Origin: Enterococcus viikkiensis
Lineage (GTDB): Bacteria; Bacillota; Bacilli; Lactobacillales; Enterococcaceae
Direction: 5' to 3'
DNA: 64,000 nt
NCBI RefSeq assembly: GCF_005405345.1
Contig: NZ_BJDW01000003.1
Location: 62,001-126,000 of the forward strand
Shown: in pieces, positions 7,136 through 46,838 of the stretch
How the letters are laid out: each line of letters starts with the position of its first letter
How positions within the stretch are numbered: position 1 is the stretch's first letter
The notes under the pieces: generated by a model
What the model was told of the DNA's origin: nothing
Database searches by the model: none
The model's input: the letters and a program-made list of their open reading frames with translations, nothing else
Position numbers and translations under genes: made by a program

Positions 7136-9265
7136 TTATTTTTCTTCTTTTTTGGTTTCTTCTTCTTTTAGCATTGCTTTACGAGAAGCATTGACCCGGC
7201 CTTGACGGTCGATTTCTGTCACTTTTACAAGTACTTCATCGCCTAATTTAACCACGTCTTCCACTTTATTCACACGTTCGTTTGCTAATTGAGAAATGTG
7301 AACCAATGCGTCTTTTCCTTTAATCAAGTTAACAAATGCGCCAAATTTTTCGATTCGGACAACTTTACCTAAGTAAACTTCGCCGACTTTAACTTCTTTG
7401 GTCAATTCTTCAATGATCTTGATGGCTTTCTTGATCATCTCTGCATCAGAAGAAGCGATGCTGACATTGCCGTCTTGATCGATGTCAATTTTCACGCCAG
7501 TTTCTTCGATGATACCATTGATGGTATCGCCGCCTTTACCGATAACTGTTTTGATCTTATCTGGATCGATTTGGATCATTTCAATCTTCGGAGCATATGG
7601 GCTTAATTCTTCACGAGGTGCCGCGATTGTATCTGTTAAGACTTCAAGGATTTCCATCCGCGCTTGTTTTGCTTGTGTTAGGGCTTCAGAAAGAATTTGT
7701 TCTGTGATTCCTTGGATTTTAATATCCATTTGCAACGCAGTGATTCCGTCTTTTGTTCCGGCAACTTTAAAGTCCATATCGCCAAGGTGGTCTTCAAGAC
7801 CTTGAATATCCGTTAAGATTGTGTAGTTTTCCCCGTCAGAGACAAGTCCCATTGCAATCCCTGCAACAGGTGCTTTAATTGGCACACCCGCGTCCATCAA
7901 TGCCAACGTTCCGGCACAGATACTTGCTTGCGAAGATGACCCGTTAGATTCTAAAACTTCGGCTACTAAACGAATTGTGTAAGGGAAGTCTTCTTCACTT
8001 GGAATAATTTGTGCCAACGCACGTTCACCTAATGCTCCGTGTCCAATTTCACGACGACCAGGAGAACCTGCGCGTCCCGTTGAACCCACAGAGAATTGTG
8101 GGAAATTATAATGATGGATGAATCGTTTGCTTTCAACGGTTCCAAGGCCATCAATGATTTGATGTTCACCTAAAGGAGCTAACGTACAAGCAGACAAAGC
8201 TTGCGTTTGTCCCCGCGTAAATAAACCTGAACCGTGAACTCGTGGCAATAAGCCTGTTTCAGCGGCTAATGGACGAATTTCATCCAACTTACGGCCATCC
8301 GGACGAATCTTATCGATCGTGATCAATTCACGGACCACATCTTTTTCAAGATCTTCCGCGATTTGTTTTACTTCTTTCGTAATTTGAACTAAATCTTCTG
8401 TCTCGATGTTGGCAAATTTTTCTGCGTAAACTTCTTTGACCGTTTCTTTGACTTTTTGGATCTCGTCTTCACGAGCCAATTTGTCCATGGTCATTACGGC
8501 TGTTTTCATTGTTTGATAGTAGCCGTCAAAAATTTCTTTTTTAAGCTCAGGATTCACTTGCAACAATTTGATTTCCATTTTTTCTTTGCCAAGAGCGGCA
8601 ACGATTTCTTCTTGGAAAGCAACTAATTCTTTGATTGCGTCAAAGCCGAATAGCAAAGCGCCTAGCATATCTTCTTCAGAAACTTCTTTCGCACCAGATT
8701 CCACCATGTTGATGGCTTGTTTGGTTCCGGCAACTGTCAAGTCGATATCTGATTGGGCATGTTGTTCCACGGTTGGGTTCAAGACATATTCCCCATTCAC
8801 GCGACCAACATCAACACCAGCGATTGGGCCTTCGAATGGGATATCAGAGATTGATAACGCCAATGAAGAACCAAACATCGCTGCCATTGATGGCGAGCAA
8901 TCTTGTTCCACACTCATTACAACGTTGGTTACTTGAACTTCGTTACGGAAGCCGTCTGCGAACATCGGACGGATTGGACGGTCGATCAAACGAGCCGTCA
9001 ACGTTGCATCCGTACTTGGACGACCTTCACGTTTAATGAAGCCACCAGGAATTTTACCGACTGCGTACATTTTTTCTTCATAGTTGATGGTTAATGGGAA
9101 AAAGTCGAAATCTTTCGCTTCTTTTGAAGCAACTGCCGCACTTAATACAACAGTATCGCCGTAACGTACTAAAACAGCACCATTGGCTTGTTTGGCAAGT
9201 TGACCGATTTCAACTTGCAGAGGGCGTCCGCCCCAAGTGGTTTTGAAAACTTGTTTTTCTGACAT
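7136..9265 (-). CDS. pnp: Polyribonucleotide nucleotidyltransferase (PNPase)
   Basis: The protein has 709 residues from the ATG at 9265, which follows GGAGAAG; upstream codons in the frame lack a site. Order of domains: first RNase PH domain, alpha-helical linker, second RNase PH domain (with [19 protein letters not shown]), KH domain ([17 protein letters not shown]) and S1 domain ending in a Lys/Glu-rich tail. PNPase degrades RNA 3'-to-5' with phosphate as a trimer. It follows rpsO as in most bacteria, separated here by a terminator and a 380-nt leader. Confidence 0.98.
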
Positions 9266-9299
9266 AACTTCTCCTTTGCCCTTTGACCAGTGCGACGCT

Positions 9300-13169: not shown

Positions 13170-13350
13170 ACAATGAGGTAGAGGTCGCGAACCTTATTAA
13201 CCCTATGGAGTGTAGAGACACGATGAAATAGGACTAGGAAGTTTCGCCGAAATGTACAAAATTCTCTAAGTTTTGTATGTTGGGACGCAAGCAAATAACT
13301 TGCGGACTGTCTTAGCAGTGATGCTAAGTTGCGCTATGTTTTTGTGAGAG
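13170..13350 (+). ncRNA. Lysine riboswitch (L box)
   Basis: The hallmark elements appear in order: GTAGAGGTCGCGAAC, the loop region with GAAGTTTCGCCGAAATG, a P4-like stem CGCAAG/CTTGCG, GGACTGTC, a P5-like stem TTAGCA/TGCTAA, and the closing GCGCTATG that pairs with the 5' strand. L boxes bind lysine and terminate transcription when it is plentiful. A terminator hairpin follows at 13376-13409, so lysine would switch off the ABC transporter downstream. That identifies the transporter's substrate far better than its protein sequence does. Confidence 0.9.
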
Positions 13351-13469: not shown

Positions 13470-15068
13470 ATGAATAGAAGAAAATTTTCAGTTATCGCCT
13501 TTATCGCATTATTTATTTCATTTTTTGGAGCACCGCTACTCACTCACGCGGATGCTAAAACACCTGAAGGAGAATTACGGGTCGGCATGGAAGCCGGCTA
13601 TGCCCCTTTCAACTGGACCCAAAAAGACAACCGCAATGGTGCGGTGCAAATCCAAGGAGACCAAGCCTATGCTGGCGGTTATGATGTTCAGATGGCCAAA
13701 AAAATCGCGGATAAAATGAACCGCAAATTAGTCGTTGTTAAAACCGAATGGGACGGATTGTTGCCTGCTTTGCAATCCGGTAAAATCGATGCCATCATTG
13801 CGGGGATGTCCCCCACAGCTGAACGTCGGAAAGAAGTCGACTTCTCCGATCCTTATTACGAATCACAGCTTGTTATCGTTACTCGTAAAGACACGAAATA
13901 TGCTAAAGCAACCTCTATTAAAGATTTTTCTGGTGCAAAGATCACCGCCCAATTGAGTACTTTCCACTACGACGTGATCCCGCAAATCCCTGGTGTTAAA
14001 AAACAAGAAGCCATGGATAATTTCCCAGCAATGCGAGTCGCTTTAGAATCCGGAACCATCGACGGCTACGTCAGTGAACGACCTGAAGGCGTTACTGCTG
14101 AAAGCGTCAATCCTGATTTAAAAATGATAGAATTCGACAAAGCCAATGGGTTCCAAACCAACCCTGAAGATGTGCAAGTTTCCGTGGGAATGCGTAAAGG
14201 TGATCCTGATATGGCACAAGTCAATCAAACCTTAGCAGGTATCTCGCAAGATGAGCGAGTACAAATTATGGACAAAGCAATTAAGGACCAACCCGCGTCA
14301 GACGAAACCACTAGCAGCTCAGGTAAAAAAGAAAATGTATTTATTCGCATCTTAAAACAAAATGGTTCAATGTTCTTACGAGGAACTGGTGTAACCTTGT
14401 TATTAGCTATCGTCGGAACAACAGTGGGAACTTTGATTGGTTTACTCGTCGGAGTCTTCCGTACCTTACCTGAATCAGACAATGGTGCAAAACGCGGCCT
14501 ACAAAAAGTGTTTGGCTGGTTGTTAAATGCCTACATCGAAATTTTCCGCGGTACGCCAATGATCGTTCAATCTGCGGTAATCTATTATGGGATCGCGATG
14601 GCCTTCGGAATTGATTTGAATCGAACAGCCGCAGCACTCTTTATTGTTTCGATTAATACCGGAGCTTATATGTCTGAAATCGTTCGTGGTGGGATTTTCG
14701 CCGTTGACCAAGGTCAATTCGAAGCCGCTCATGCAATTGGAATGACTCATGGGCAAACAATGCGCAAGGTCGTCTTGCCTCAAGTCTTGCGTAATATTTT
14801 GCCAGCGACTGGGAATGAATTAGTCATCAATATCAAAGATACCTCTGTATTAAGTATCATTTCTGTTTCTGAATTGTTCTTCCAAGGGAAATCCGCAGCC
14901 GGAACGAACTATATGTTCTTCCAAACCTACTTCATTATTTGTGTGATTTACTTTGTCTTAACTTTCACCGCAACGCGGATCTTACGCTTAGTTGAGAAAA
15001 AAATGGACGGCCCATCCGCTTATGTTCGTTTAGATGACGTTGATGTAGCCATTGGCGAAGACAAATAA
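13470..15068 (+). CDS. Fused substrate-binding/permease protein of an amino-acid (lysine) ABC transporter
   Basis: The protein has 532 residues. A signal peptide (1-27) is followed by a periplasmic-binding-protein type 2 domain (about 35-270; LRVGMEAGYAPFNWT) and then a HisM-like permease domain (about 290-520) with the inner-membrane EAA-type loop EAAHAIGMTHGQTMRKVVLP. Such fusions are common in lactic acid bacteria and place the receptor permanently on the transporter. The upstream L box indicates lysine as substrate. The ATPase partner follows after a structured 117-nt gap. Confidence 0.92.
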   Translation: MNRRKFSVIAFIALFISFFGAPLLTHADAKTPEGELRVGMEAGYAPFNWTQKDNRNGAVQIQGDQAYAGGYDVQMAKKIADKMNRKLVVVKTEWDGLLPALQSGKIDAIIAGMSPTAERRKEVDFSDPYYESQLVIVTRKDTKYAKATSIKDFSGAKITAQLSTFHYDVIPQIPGVKKQEAMDNFPAMRVALESGTIDGYVSERPEGVTAESVNPDLKMIEFDKANGFQTNPEDVQVSVGMRKGDPDMAQVNQTLAGISQDERVQIMDKAIKDQPASDETTSSSGKKENVFIRILKQNGSMFLRGTGVTLLLAIVGTTVGTLIGLLVGVFRTLPESDNGAKRGLQKVFGWLLNAYIEIFRGTPMIVQSAVIYYGIAMAFGIDLNRTAAALFIVSINTGAYMSEIVRGGIFAVDQGQFEAAHAIGMTHGQTMRKVVLPQVLRNILPATGNELVINIKDTSVLSIISVSELFFQGKSAAGTNYMFFQTYFIICVIYFVLTFTATRILRLVEKKMDGPSAYVRLDDVDVAIGEDK

Positions 15069-18312: not shown

Positions 18313-18463
18313 TAAAATAAAATAACGGATGTGCTTCAAAATACCTTTAACTCTATGAATCAAAAACTAATCTAATAGTACTTATTGACTTTATTTTTCT
18401 TAAAGTTAACGGATTCGCTAGTCTTTCATCACATTTTTTTCATAACTAGTTGCTACTATATAG

Positions 18464-18544
18464 GCATACCAACAAACAACCCTAACACTTTTTCATTTTT
18501 TAACTCCTTTGCTCATCGGCCACCCACCGATGAGCTCTTTTTTT
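18464..18544 (+). ncRNA. Candidate small RNA, copy 1 (anti-SD/anti-AUG type)
   Basis: A TGCTACTATATA promoter box precedes it, with no clear -35. The predicted RNA of about 80 nt has an unpaired A/C-rich 5' part (CATACCAACAAACAACCC), then TTTTTCATTTTTTAACTCC, then a terminator with a 9-bp stem (18511-18519 with 18527-18535) and a T run. The middle part is an exact complement of an ideal start region: anti-CAT at 18494-18496 and CTCCTTT (anti Shine-Dalgarno) at 18504-18510. This resembles the CiaR-dependent csRNAs of streptococci, though no CiaR site is evident. Confidence 0.75.
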
Positions 18545-18666
18545 GTTTGCAACTATTTTAAAACAACCTAATTCAGATAAAGTGTCGTTACTTTTTCTTA
18601 ACTTATTCTCTTATTTATTCTCAATCCTCGTTCACAATTTATTCACAACTAGTTGCTATTATATAA

Positions 18667-18748
18667 GCATACCAACAAACAACCCTAACACTTTTTCATT
18701 TTTTAACTCCTTTGCTCATCGGCCACCCACCGATGAGCTCCTTTTTTT
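18667..18748 (+). ncRNA. Candidate small RNA, copy 2 (anti-SD/anti-AUG type)
   Basis: The body is identical to copy 1 from GCATACC to the terminator stem (18714-18722 with 18730-18738). The promoter box reads TGCTATTATATA. A different 100-nt AT-rich sequence upstream could give it separate regulation. Confidence 0.75.
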
Positions 18749-18756
18749 ATTTGTGA

Positions 18757-18826
18757 AAAGGAACCCCTGAACGTGAATAAACGGTGTCTTCCATTCATTG
18801 TAGACGGATCGTTCCTCCTTTTTTCT
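18757..18826 (+). other. Possible third structured transcript or read-through terminator
   Basis: AGGAAC (18759-18764) pairs with GTTCCT (18811-18816) around a 46-nt partly self-complementary loop, with a T run after it. It may be a backup terminator for the sRNA genes or a separate small RNA. Confidence 0.3.
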
Positions 18827-18852
18827 TAAAAATTTTATCCCTTTAATTTTTA

Positions 18853-18888
18853 AAAGCCGCGAATCGTTGGATGACGATTCGCGGCTTT
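18853..18888. terminator. Strong hairpin terminator, bidirectional
   Basis: A perfect 15-bp stem (18853-18867 with 18874-18888) has a 6-nt loop and A/T-rich flanks. Confidence 0.8.
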
Positions 18889-18953: not shown

Positions 18954-19925
18954 TTATTTTTTATGTGTTTCAAACAATGGGCTAACGGGTTTATTTTCAT
19001 GGATACGTTTGATGGCATCCCCCATTAATTCACCAACGCTGATTTCATCGATTTTGTCGATTTTGCGTTCATCTGATAAGTAGATTGAATCCGTCACGAC
19101 TAAATGCTCGATCGCTGAATCTTGAATCCGTTGCATTGCTGGACCAGATAAAACGGGATGAGTACATGAAGCGTAGACTTTTTTCGCACCAGCTTCTTTT
19201 AATGCATTGGCAGCTAACGTGATAGTCCCTGCTGTATCGATCATATCATCAATGATCACACAAGTTTTTCCATCTACTTTCCCAATGATGTTCATCACTT
19301 CGGCAACATTCGCTTTTGGACGACGTTTGTCGATGATTGCAATTGGGGCTTTTAAGAATTCAGCCAATTTACGCGCGCGTGTTACACCACCGTGGTCTGG
19401 TGAGACAACAACAACATCATCGCCGCAAATTTCTTTTTCTAAGAAATAATCTGCAATCAATGGCGCACCCATCAAATGATCAACTGGGATATCAAAGAAG
19501 CCTTGGATTTGTGAAGCATGTAAATCTAACGTTAATAAACGTGTTGCTCCTGCTTTTTCAATCATGTTGGCAACTAGTTTTGCAGTAATTGGTTCCCGTG
19601 CGCGTGCTTTACGGTCTTGGCGTGCATAACCGTAATAAGGCATTACGACGTTGATTGTTTTTGCACTCGCGCGTTTCAAGGCATCGATCATAATCAAAAG
19701 TTCCATTAAATTATCATTTACCGGACTACTTGTTGACTGAACGACATAGACATGACAGCCACGAATACTTTCTTCAATATTTACTTGAATTTCGCCATCG
19801 CTAAATTGAGTGACCGAACTTTTTCCTAGCTCTACACCAACTTCTTCAGCAATTTTTTCAGCTAAGGGACGATTTGAGTTCAAAGCAAAAATTTTCAATC
19901 TTGGATCAAAATAATGTTTCGACAT
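18954..19925 (-). CDS. prs: Ribose-phosphate pyrophosphokinase
   Basis: The protein has 323 residues from the ATG at 19925, which follows GGAGGT. It makes PRPP from ribose 5-phosphate and ATP. Signatures seen: the PRPP synthase motif [18 protein letters not shown] and the PRPP-binding loop [12 protein letters not shown]. It sits downstream of glmU and purR, as in E. faecalis and Bacillus; PRPP is the effector sensed by PurR. Confidence 0.97.
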
Positions 19926-20022
19926 GGGGACCTCCACTTTCTTTTTAAGCATACGCTACCGATTATATACCATTTCAAATAAAATACTAGTCATTTCCAT
20001 TTAAGAAATCAAGAGATTTCCC

Positions 20023-43054: not shown

Positions 43055-44463
43055 TAGGCTCTTCTCCAACGGACACCTTGTGGGGTATCTTCTAAAATAA
43101 TTCCTTGTTCTTTCAATTGATCGCGAATTTCATCGCTGCGGGCAAAATTTTTATCTTTTCGCGCTTGATTCCGTTCTTCGATTAATTGGTCAACTTCTTC
43201 ATCTAATAAACCAGCCGTTTGAAACTCGATTCCAAAAATAGATAAAAGCTTCGTAAATTCTTCCAACGCCGCGGTCAAGACCACTGCCGAAACACGTTCT
43301 TGCTCACTGTAATGGTTCAACCATTTCGCCACTTCATAAACCACGGTGATTCCGTTGGCTGCATTGAAATCATCGTCCATCTCTTCAATAAAACGATCTT
43401 TCAAGGTACGCAATTCAACTAATTTTGCTTGATCATCCGCTAATTCATCTTCTGCCGTTGCTTGACGGAAAGTCGCGTTTTCAAATGCCGTACGCAATTT
43501 TTGCAGATTTGCTTGTGCATCCTTCATCGTCGTTTCGCTATAACGGATCGGACGGCGATATTGAGTCGTCGCCATAAAGAAACGTAAAACCTGTGGATCG
43601 ATCTCTTTCACTAGATCATGCACCGTTACAAAGTTCCCCAAGGATTTACTCATCTTAGCGTCATCTTCACCAATCGTCACATAACCGTTGTGCATCCAAT
43701 AATTGGCAAACCGTTTGCCAGTCTTCGCTTCACTTTGAGCAATCTCGTTTTCATGGTGGGGAAATTCCAAATCTTGCCCGCCACCATGAATGTCGATGGT
43801 CTCGCCTAAATGCTTCGTCGCCATCACCGAGCACTCGATATGCCAGCCTGGACGACCCGCACCCCATGGAGATTCCCACGAAATTTCATCTGGTTTCGCA
43901 CTCTTCCACAAAGCAAAATCCAAGGGATCTTCTTTGATTGCTTGCTCCACGCCCGTCCGTTGACTAGCTCCGACTTCTAGCTCATCAATCGATTGGTCGC
44001 TTAGCTCACCATAATGCTCAAATTTGCGTGTCCGGTAATAAACATCACCAGCCACTTCATAGGCATAGCCTTTTTCGATCAACGCTTCAATGAAGCTTAA
44101 GATATCTGGAATATGATCCATCACTCGAGGATGCAGTGTCGCCGGTTTGACATTCAAGGCGGCGGTATCCTCTTCAAAAGCTGCGATAAAACGATCGGCC
44201 AACTCCGGTGCTGTGACGGCTAATTCTTTTGCTGCTTTGATAATCTTGTCATCCACATCGGTAAAATTCGAGACATAATTCACCTCATAACCGCGGTATT
44301 CAAAATAACGACGAATCACATCAAAAGCGATCGAACTGCGAGCATTTCCTATGTGGATATAGTTATACACGGTTGGTCCGCAGACATACATACGAACTTT
44401 ATTTTCTTCAATCGGTTTAAAAAGTTCTTTCTCTCGTGTTAGTGTATTGTGTATTTTAATCAT
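43054..44463 (-). CDS. cysS: Cysteinyl-tRNA synthetase
   Basis: The protein has 469 residues from the ATG at 44463 after AAGG. The class I motifs are HIGN ([11 protein letters not shown]) and KMSKS ([12 protein letters not shown]). Zinc ligands include the Cys in [19 protein letters not shown] and the HHENE region. It overlaps cysE by 8 nt. The upstream cysteine T-box controls both genes. Confidence 0.98.
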
Positions 44464-44989
44464 GAGGAACCTTCTTTCCATTTATTTTGACTATTTTTGC
44501 GGGGACACCAACAGCTGTGGCATCTGTTGGAATACTTTTCAATACAACGGCCCCAGCACCAATTTTGACCCTTGCGCCAATCTCGATTGGTCCTAGAATC
44601 TGAGCATTGGCAGAAATAAACGCCCCTTGCCGAATGGTAGGGTGCCGCTTGCCGGCGTCTTTGCCGGTTCCACCCAGAGTTACGCCATGGAATAATACCA
44701 CATCTCGTTCAATTTCCGCAGTCTCACCGATCACGACCCCCATTCCGTGATCAATAAAAACACCGGGAGCAATCTTAGCACCGGGATGGATCTCAATCCC
44801 AGTCAAAAAACGCCAAAATTGTGAATGGATCCGTGCCAACAAAAACCGCTTATGTCGATAGAGAAAATGCGAAAATTTGTGAAAGAACAATGCATGGACA
44901 CCCGGATAGGTAAGGACTACCTCAGCACCTGAGCGAACCGCTGGATCATTGCGTTTTGCTGCTACAATCGCCTCTTGCCACCATCCCAT
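44456..44989 (-). CDS. cysE: Serine O-acetyltransferase
   Basis: The protein has 177 residues from the ATG at 44989, after AAGGAG; 13 further upstream codons lack a site. It has an N-terminal helical part and a left-handed beta-helix with hexapeptide repeats, including [19 protein letters not shown] and [11 protein letters not shown]. It makes O-acetylserine for cysteine synthesis and is shorter than the E. coli enzyme, as in Bacillus. Confidence 0.95.
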
Positions 44990-45160: not shown

Positions 45161-45360
45161 AAAAAAAGCGTCTTTTGAGTTTCCTCAAAAGACGCTTAGA
45201 CGTGGTCCCACTTTTGTTTGCAATTGCTTGCCTTGAAACAGGTAACGTCTGTGAATCGTCCTTAGCTACATATCGCTAAGGCCACTCCGAGATGCATTTC
45301 ACAACAGATGATTTGACTGCTTGCACCGACCGCAGCCTCTCTGAAAAATCAATCGTTGGT
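45161..45360 (-). promoter_or_regulatory. Cysteine T-box leader with terminator
   Basis: On the minus strand the T-box core AGTGGGACCACG (45201-45212) precedes a terminator with a perfect 13-bp stem (45167-45179 with 45184-45196) and seven T. Stem I and the AG-bulge-like region extend to about 45355. In the specifier region GAAATGCATC, TGC (45294-45296) is a cysteine codon, fitting cysE-cysS downstream. Uncharged tRNA-Cys would allow read-through. Confidence 0.88.
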
Positions 45361-45380
45361 ACTTCTTCTCTTCTATGTGT

Positions 45381-46838
45381 TTACATAACTTGATTTAAAT
45401 GGGCTAAGGCTTTTTCTTTGCCTAATAATTCAACCGTTTCAGGTAATTCAGGTCCGTGGGTCACACCGCTGACGGCGACACGAATCGGCATCCATAATTT
45501 TTTCCCTTTAACGCCAGTTTCTTTTTGAACAGCTTTGATTGCAGCCAAAACATTCGCTGCATCTACCGTTTCCATTGCTTCTAATTGGGCTTTAAAAGCC
45601 TTCAATACCGTTGGTACATCTTCTTCCGCCAACACTGCTTTGGCAGCGTCATCCAAAACTGGATGTTCTTCAAAGAACAAGTTTGAGACTTCCGTAATTT
45701 CTGCGGTGTAGCTCATTTGTGGTTGATACAAGCTAATTACTCGTTTTACCCAATCTTTGCGTTCAGGCGTTGGATTTTCTTCAACTTTTCCAGCTTTGAT
45801 CAAGAATGGCAGACACAATTCAGTTAATTTGTCTAAGTCCATTGCTTTGATGTAATGGTTGTTCACCCATTCTAATTTCTTTGGATCAAAGGCCGCTGGT
45901 GATTTGCTTAACCGTTTTGTATCGAACAATTTAACCAACTCTTCTTGAGAAAAGATTTCGTCTTCACCGACTGGAGACCAGCCTAGTAAAGTAATGAAGT
46001 TAAACATTGCTTCTGGCAAATAACCTAATTCCCGGTATTGTTCGATGAATTGTAGAATACTTTCGTCACGTTTACTTAATTTTTTACCGGTTTCACTATT
46101 AATGATCAACGTCATGTGACCAAAGGTTGGACGTGTCCAACCGAAAGCATCGTAAATCATTAATTGTTTTGGCGTGTTGGCGATATGGTCGTCCCCACGC
46201 AATACATGTGTGATCTTCATAAAGTGATCATCTACGGCTACCGCAAAGTTATAGGTTGGCATGCCATCACGTTTTTGAATAACAAAATCGCCACCAACAT
46301 TATCCGATTCAAAACTGATTTCGCCTTTGACCATATCGTCAAAAGCAAAGCTAGTATTACGGGGAACACGGAAACGAACCACTGGTTCTAAACCTTGTGC
46401 TTCTTTTTCAGCTTGTTGTTCAGGTGTTAAGTTCGCACATTTGCCACCATAATGAGGCATCTCTCCACGAGCACGTTGCGCTTCACGTTCGGCTTCTAAC
46501 TCTTCTGGAGTGCAATAACATTTATAAGCCAAATTACTAGCCAATAATTGGTCGATCAATGGTTGATAAATCTCTCTGCGTTCAGATTGACGGTAAGGCC
46601 CGTATTCTCCTGGATTTTCTGGTGATTCATCCCAGTCGATCCCTAACCATGCCAAGTTTTCTAGCTGACTTTTTTCACCATCTTCAATGTTGCGTTTCAA
46701 GTCAGTATCCTCGATCCGAATGATGAATTCTCCATCATTGTGACGAGCGAATAAATAATTGAATAATGCTGTTCGAGCATTTCCGATGTGTAAGTGTCCA
46801 GTTGGACTTGGTGCATAACGTACACGAATTTTTGACAT
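45381..46838 (-). CDS. gltX: Glutamyl-tRNA synthetase
   Basis: The protein has 485 residues with the class I motifs HIGN ([17 protein letters not shown]) and KLSKR ([10 protein letters not shown]). Zinc-binding cysteines are seen in [11 protein letters not shown] and a later Cys. In low-GC Gram-positives the enzyme also charges tRNA-Gln with Glu for transamidation. The order gltX–cysE–cysS is standard in this group. Confidence 0.98.

Follow-up and report, generated by a model that had tools for sequence, protein, structure and literature searches.

The window, a 64,000-nt stretch of the Enterococcus viikkiensis genome (contig NZ_BJDW01000003.1, positions 62,001 to 126,000), contains two plus-strand units spaced 203 nt apart, which lie between an ORF for an Mga-type regulator and the prs gene for ribose-phosphate diphosphokinase (Table 1). 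When read directly from the sequence, 74 nt are identical between the two units (18464–18537 and 18667–18740), and a repeat search placed this identity within a 116-nt repeat which is 95% identical (18429–18544 and 18632–18747). While this confirms the spacing and the identical stretch reported in an earlier note on this DNA, the accompanying statement that the surrounding sequence is unrelated did not hold, as the promoters are alike too, each −10 box being preceded at an identical distance by a direct repeat of the same kind. Each unit ends with a 9-bp stem, a 7-nt loop and a T-run, and both predicted RNAs carry the same anti-start segment, ACTTTTTCATTTTTTAACTCCTTTG, the complement of which reads as a ribosome binding site followed by a start codon, exactly as the note had described. 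A plain −35/−10 scan called no promoter at either unit, and an ordinary −35 element was rejected for both on these grounds.

Table 1. Features of the twin units and their flanking genes, given as window positions.
Feature	Position	Strand	Remark
Flanking ORF, Mga-type regulator, 500 aa	16756..18258	+	outside the RNA genes
Direct repeat, unit 1: ATCACA-N5-TTCATA	18428..18444	+	half-sites 18428–18433 and 18439–18444; 1 mismatch to the box; fixed geometry
−10 box, unit 1: TACTAT	18454..18459	+	TTGC just before
Predicted small RNA 1, ~79 nt	18466..18544	+	5' end inferred from the −10 box, 3' end from the terminator
Anti-start-codon/anti-SD segment, RNA 1	18487..18511	+	
Terminator hairpin, RNA 1	18511..18535	+	9 bp, loop CCACCCA region
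Direct repeat, unit 2: TTCACA-N5-TTCACA	18631..18647	+	half-sites 18631–18636 and 18642–18647; 0 mismatches to the box
−10 box, unit 2: TATTAT	18657..18662	+	TTGC just before
Predicted small RNA 2, ~79 nt	18669..18747	+	
Anti-start-codon/anti-SD segment, RNA 2	18690..18714	+	
Terminator hairpin, RNA 2	18714..18738	+	
Flanking ORF, ribose-phosphate diphosphokinase (prs)	18954..19952	−	outside the RNA genes

Directly 3' of unit 2, positions 18749–18888 of the plus strand hold a CGTTCCTCC stretch and a 16-pair hairpin with a T-run (18853–18888), which have no sequence relation to the twins. Elsewhere on the plus strand of the window there is an Rfam match to the Listeria rliD RNA (9116–9295, 57.6 bits with a cut-off of 50), and a Lysine riboswitch (13171–13344) located before an amino-acid transporter-like ORF (13470–15068).

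The folding z-scores of the twin RNAs were −8.62 and −8.08, better than those of shuffled sequences, and in the predicted fold of both RNAs the 46 nt located 5' of the terminator stem are unpaired. Conservation was assessed in an alignment of 47 of the 53 distinct twin-type bodies; the six left out are a divergent pair from L021, a pair from L202 and the two copies from Vagococcus. In these 47 bodies the terminator stem is paired in 98.8% of the cells and all nine stem pairs have changed on both sides, with 92 double-change cells versus 27.7 in shuffles (0/500 shuffles as high). Mean identity, taken without mostly-gap columns, was 98.5% in the unpaired 5' part (43 columns), 75% in the stem and 88% in the loop. 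The unpaired 5' part, the compensating hairpin changes in related genomes and the selection which the earlier note had postulated are thus all borne out, the last by the combination of a compensated stem with a near-invariant unpaired part; judged from this pattern, the twin units are RNA genes. The T-run following CA is 5 to 8 nt long where AACTCC comes after it, and this variable length indicates that the distance from the anti-AUG part to the anti-SD part is not fixed.

The conserved stretch can also be read from the opposite strand, where the complement encodes M-K-K-C-stop in 69/79 twin-type copies, and it could be argued that the minus strand is what matters, with MKKC as a leader peptide translated from a good ribosome binding site. 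We find this scarcely conceivable, since the aligned copies have their promoter geometry and their T-run on the plus strand, the peptide is altered or runs on in other copies, as befits a by-product of RNA conservation, and no promoter-like site for a minus-strand peptide was called at the units.

In the E. viikkiensis genome a 132-nt query found no strong match besides the twins (next best E 0.16). A match at E ≤ 0.01 is present in each of the 20 genomes searched in the genus, among them this one, although the sole match at that threshold in G008 is no more than a 45-nt fragment where a contig ends. Tandem sets occur in several of these genomes and dispersed copies in some. A pattern combining the upstream repeat (the box, see below) with the RNA start found 23 stretches in the named genome collection, a count which may omit records near the window: 21 were from Enterococcus (E. 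avium, E. raffinosus, E. malodoratus, E. devriesei, E. pseudoavium, E. pallens, E. florum, E. dispar, E. canintestini and others) and two from Vagococcus (V. allomyrinae and V. lutrae). The covariance model R1, built from twin-type bodies and giving rough E-values, matched 104/105 Enterococcaceae genomes at E ≤ 0.001, representing 17/17 genera, with a maximum of 16 matches in one genome. In the order sample R1 matched 75/395 genomes at E ≤ 1e-4, these being 70 Enterococcaceae and five members of family f8, which probably includes Vagococcus, and the 320 genomes unmatched at this threshold include G008 of the own genus. The presence in relatives that was foreseen earlier therefore covers the genus, nearly the whole family and Vagococcus. 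Copies in such numbers, both tandem and dispersed, could also stem from an intergenic repeat that is mobile or spreads by itself and has no function in the cell, but copies keep the box, the −10 box, the unpaired segment and the compensated terminator and are present in all but one of the 105 family genomes, making this explanation very improbable.

All 79 distinct twin-type copies, taken from the genus and a few neighbours, align to TTCAYA-N5-TTCAYA-N9-TANNAT when up to three substitutions are allowed, with the TC of the first half-site and the TCA of the second invariant in 79/79. The box sits 9 nt 5' of the −10 box. In a fuzzy search the repeat was found within 0, 1 and 2 mismatches in 47, 71 and 77 of the 79 twin-type upstream regions, versus 0, 0 and 1 of 40 copies of the other, Ref84-like type and 0, 0.4 and 4.1% of shuffled upstream sequences. 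A detailed look at 22 genomes covered 101 R1 matches (three of them in G020), and in the 28 of these matches from outside the genus that were shown with sequence the box was present within two mismatches in 24 and within one mismatch in 16. The 100 box matches in the 20 genus genomes (16 in total with the reversed control pattern) are distributed over the RNAs (63), the region before an OmpR-type response-regulator gene (19) and other places (18), and three of the latter look like further RNA copies, two of them cut by contig ends. From its layout and placement this appears to be a box of the response-regulator type, shared by several RNA copies. The suggestion that different upstream regions would give the twins different control found no support, as both twins, like the 79 twin-type copies, carry a repeat of one kind at equal distance from the −10 box.

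One-mismatch boxes were also seen before FtsX-type permease-like ORFs, named by look only, at L419, L420 and L421 (in G108, G107 and G110, respectively, all of the E. dispar group) and twice in V. allomyrinae (G105; L422 and L423). The latter genome has seven box matches in region 146460–246160 of contig C42, and at the four of these that were examined as loci (L293, L315, L316 and L317) the box is followed by members of the family in which the hairpins separating the anti-AUG part from the anti-SD part vary.

With regard to the regulator, box plus −10 box at 0–1 mismatch has three matches in the E. viikkiensis genome, namely both RNAs and a site before the ORF of an OmpR-family response regulator, with a histidine kinase gene after it and an ABC transporter in divergent orientation. 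At the E. devriesei-type ortholog locus (G003) the corresponding proteins have REC and Trans_reg_C domains (regulator), HAMP, HisKA and HATPase domains (kinase), and a fused ATPase-FtsX architecture (a MacB-like protein of 796 aa). The box is located before 19/19 regulator orthologs found in the genus, and the picture is that of an autoregulated system, the genus regulon of which would consist essentially of these RNAs. The E. viikkiensis regulator gene (G000:C1:250100-250771, corresponding to L107:1561-2232) is interrupted in frame by a stop that follows codon 152, close to where the DNA-binding domain begins, whereas the G003 ortholog is open with 223 aa; the stop may be a real loss or an assembly error.

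The distributions of RNA and candidate regulator do not coincide, since at E ≤ 1e-40 the regulator was found in 45/105 Enterococcaceae genomes (the full-length query adds one, G091) versus the almost universal RNAs, and G011, a member of the own genus, has boxed RNAs (11 R1 matches) and no regulator ortholog at this threshold. Together with the retention of the box outside the genus, this speaks for a variant in which the RNA and its mechanism are the same, the box is driven throughout the family by a response regulator of wider conservation, and the genus system is only one further member of the regulon. In other genera another regulator may indeed serve the box: the promoters of 11 outside-genus orthologs were examined, and nine of these show only a reversed, altered repeat. 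Within the genus, however, the box exceeds chance at two places only, the RNAs and the gene of the candidate, which is the usual picture for autoregulation, and no other conserved regulator gene was found among the own-genome box matches at 0–1 mismatch, so that we see this variant as possible and rather unlikely. About half of our confidence goes to the reading in which the multi-copy anti-start repressor RNAs are driven by an OmpR-type response regulator through the TTCAYA box, with the box-carrying two-component system as the candidate in the genus.

Three other regulators and one identity of the candidate were considered and rejected. The candidate is reminiscent of HssRS/HrtAB (PMC3968170, PMC6305404) in its 11-bp repeat and in the divergent arrangement of two-component system and ABC transporter, but against an HssR-like identity no NCBIfam equivalog reached its cut-off among the best 25 of 97 matches, and the fused 796-aa transporter differs. 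A phosphate regulator was set aside as no phosphate-uptake gene lies beside 7 of the 16 own-genome box matches at two mismatches, which is a weak test. For a VicR-type regulator, only G060 shows the box among the promoters examined, and there it belongs to an RNA copy. CroR was discarded as its motif in the accessible text of PMC9426447, TTTATTAA, is unlike the box. Separately, we observed an RNA copy 82 and 167 nt before a vicR/walR-like regulator gene (by look) in members of two genera (L381 in G060 and L398 in G099).

Complementarity of the anti-start segment to a Shine-Dalgarno sequence plus AUGAAAAAG is perfect on paper, but a perfect antisense of one mRNA is not supported: in the E. viikkiensis genome the 23-nt complement with up to three mismatches has no mRNA match and is found only at the two RNA genes themselves, and in other genomes some real starts do match, with no genus-common target among them. 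These starts include a GH25-muramidase-like gene in G011 and G013 and a CapA-like lipoprotein gene in G014 (three mismatches) and G019 (four mismatches), all assigned by look, and inspection of the same kind pointed to further secreted proteins, to an Mga-like gene and to a number of genes of metabolism.

Pairing was also looked at as a general property, using 435 ORFs from a 464-kb sample and 120 dinucleotide-shuffled RNAs plus the reversed RNA as controls. In start windows the mean pairing energy of the RNA was −14.16 kcal/mol, versus −12.43 (sd 0.55) for the shuffles and −12.98 for the reversed RNA, and it beat 120/120 shuffles; these energies ignore mRNA structure, SD strength had a part in the choice of ORF starts, and an RNA with an anti-SD of whatever kind may outscore shuffles. 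In internal windows the RNA was not better than the reversed RNA (−10.19 vs −10.94). ORFs encoding a hydrophobic segment at the N-terminus, 86 in number, were preferred by −1.85 kcal/mol, versus −0.71 (sd 0.32) for the shuffles and −0.50 for the reversed RNA, and 0/120 shuffles had as strong a preference for such exported-like ORFs; an initial run that used 10 mononucleotide shuffles yielded p-values of 4.7e-5 for the RNA, 0.21 for the reversed RNA and 0.07 for the shuffled mean. All 68 pairings of −18 kcal/mol or below touch both start codon and SD region, although this is a weak indication, with long pairings and a short window. The best-scoring ORF, CysE-like by look, is located on the minus strand of the window (~44456–44989), and a T-box (45185–45384, minus strand) lies upstream of it.

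The conserved 5' part reaches well past the anti-start segment, and upstream of this segment the complement puts a stop codon right after MKKC, making pairing of the full stretch with coding sequence unlikely. The RNAs might thus bind a protein as a sponge or scaffold, with the A/C-rich and U-rich stretch as the protein site rather than an mRNA-pairing site, and the many copies would be compatible with titration. We consider this improbable, as the advantage over shuffles in start windows is not accompanied by better pairing than the reversed RNA in internal windows, and the part separating the AUG and SD complements varies in length, as SD spacers do. The RNAs would act in trans to repress translation.

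The closest curated family is Ref84 (Rfam RF02846, Enterococcus sRNA 84), which is from the same bacterial family. The twins score 31.8 and 29.1 bits against it (E 0.05 and 0.16), below the gathering score of 52 bits. They resemble Ref84 in an end-to-end alignment (1–87) in having the 5' start UACCAACA-ACAACC, a U-rich anti-AUG part, ACUCCUUU and the terminator, whereas the first Ref84 hairpin, located between the anti-AUG and anti-SD parts, is deleted in both twins, leaving a stretch without pairing. Likewise, Ref84-like copies lack the TTCAYA box which the twin-type copies carry. As the score is weak, and the E. viikkiensis genome has a separate Ref84 copy (G000:C1:117612-117691, L087; 54.5 bits) without a TTCAYA repeat upstream, the twins were treated as a sister subfamily. 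The Vagococcus twin-type copies have an additional, Ref84-like hairpin that separates the anti-AUG part from the anti-SD part, and in the family members at loci L289, L291, L294, L301 and L361 a small inserted hairpin sets the ACCAACAA start apart from the AACCCTAACACTTTTTCAT part. No enterococcal sRNA paper was among those listed in a literature search for Ref84/RF02846.

The earlier proposal of duplicated non-coding RNAs built on the plan of the streptococcal csRNAs, with an anti-SD/anti-AUG stretch, is supported. In the available portion of PMC4438229 the csRNAs have several similar copies, sequences complementary to SD and start codon, about 40 unpaired nt and a CiaR box of two hexamers (TTTAAG-N5-TTTAAG) for an OmpR-type regulator. 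The box layout is equal and its sequence differs (TTCAYA instead of TTTAAG); moreover, the csRNAs described there have two stem-loops around the unpaired region, whereas the twins have the terminator hairpin only, and the csRNA nonamer [A/C]UCCUAAA[A/C] is absent from the RNAs in the window. Similarly, the Listeria LhrC1-5 RNAs, as given in the accessible sections of PMC4132741, are multi-copy, need LisRK and cover the SD region of a surface-protein mRNA, but they have three UCCC-containing sites, of which the twin RNAs have none, and their LisR-responsive positions are at approximately −55 to −75, compared with −22 to −38 for the box of the twins; no published LisR consensus was found. The best reading is that the twins would work like csRNAs and LhrC and be a member of neither.

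Among enterococcal sRNAs, the E. faecalis/E. faecium pair sRNA_112/sRNA_005 has a first 50 nt conserved across species and predicted targets including lipoproteins and ABC transporters, and another pair is similar to Rfam sRNA_084 (Michaux 2020, PMC7724050, as far as its accessible text goes). Compared by description only, sRNA_112/sRNA_005 may be the family of the twins, although that text makes no mention of a multi-copy nature or a box. Ern0160 was rejected as a twin RNA, since according to the excerpted text of PMC12870237 it is 362–370 nt long, lies between queA and mgtA and pairs inside ORFs, and the sRNAs of Sinel 2017 are given as coordinates only in the part of PMC5593968 at hand, from which no match to the twins' family was made. 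A search of the literature on tandem or multicopy enterococcal sRNAs, with subscription papers mostly outside its scope, gave no description of the family, box or regulator among the matches listed.

Taken together, we propose that the window holds two copies of a family of ~79-nt trans-acting small RNAs. An OmpR/PhoB-family response regulator, perhaps answering an envelope signal, would bind the 11-bp-spaced TTCAYA-N5-TTCAYA which replaces the −35 element, and would thereby turn on the RNA copies together, and the best candidate in the genus is the two-component system whose regulator gene is itself preceded by this box and which adjoins a MacB-like ABC transporter in divergent orientation. 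In each RNA an extended, unpaired 5' half is followed by the terminator hairpin, and the CUUUUUCAU...AACUCCUU stretch of the RNA would pair with the Shine-Dalgarno sequence and start codon of mRNAs, hindering ribosome binding. The copies could be additive as dose, and the targets are probably many imperfect matches, with mRNAs for exported proteins (which start with MKK) preferred.

No global RNA chaperone is known in enterococci according to the accessible text of PMC7724050, and few enterococcal trans-acting sRNAs with a mechanism were found in the literature covered. Tentatively, these RNAs could be a core family of the Enterococcaceae, with up to 16 copies per genome, which is fired by a response regulator via its own box and broadly restrains translation of the exported proteome, being complementary not to a single target but to what secretory mRNAs have in common (a strong SD and AUG AAA AAA), and which was overlooked since Rfam holds only the distant sister Ref84. 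The near-universal presence of the family in the Enterococcaceae, with a defined box and pairing segment, makes a two-component-to-sRNA circuit directly testable in enterococci, and the family seems to be a third case, independently arisen, of the plan represented by the csRNAs in streptococci and LhrC in Listeria. If the bias towards exported proteins is true, this circuit would tie signal sensing to the translation of surface proteins.
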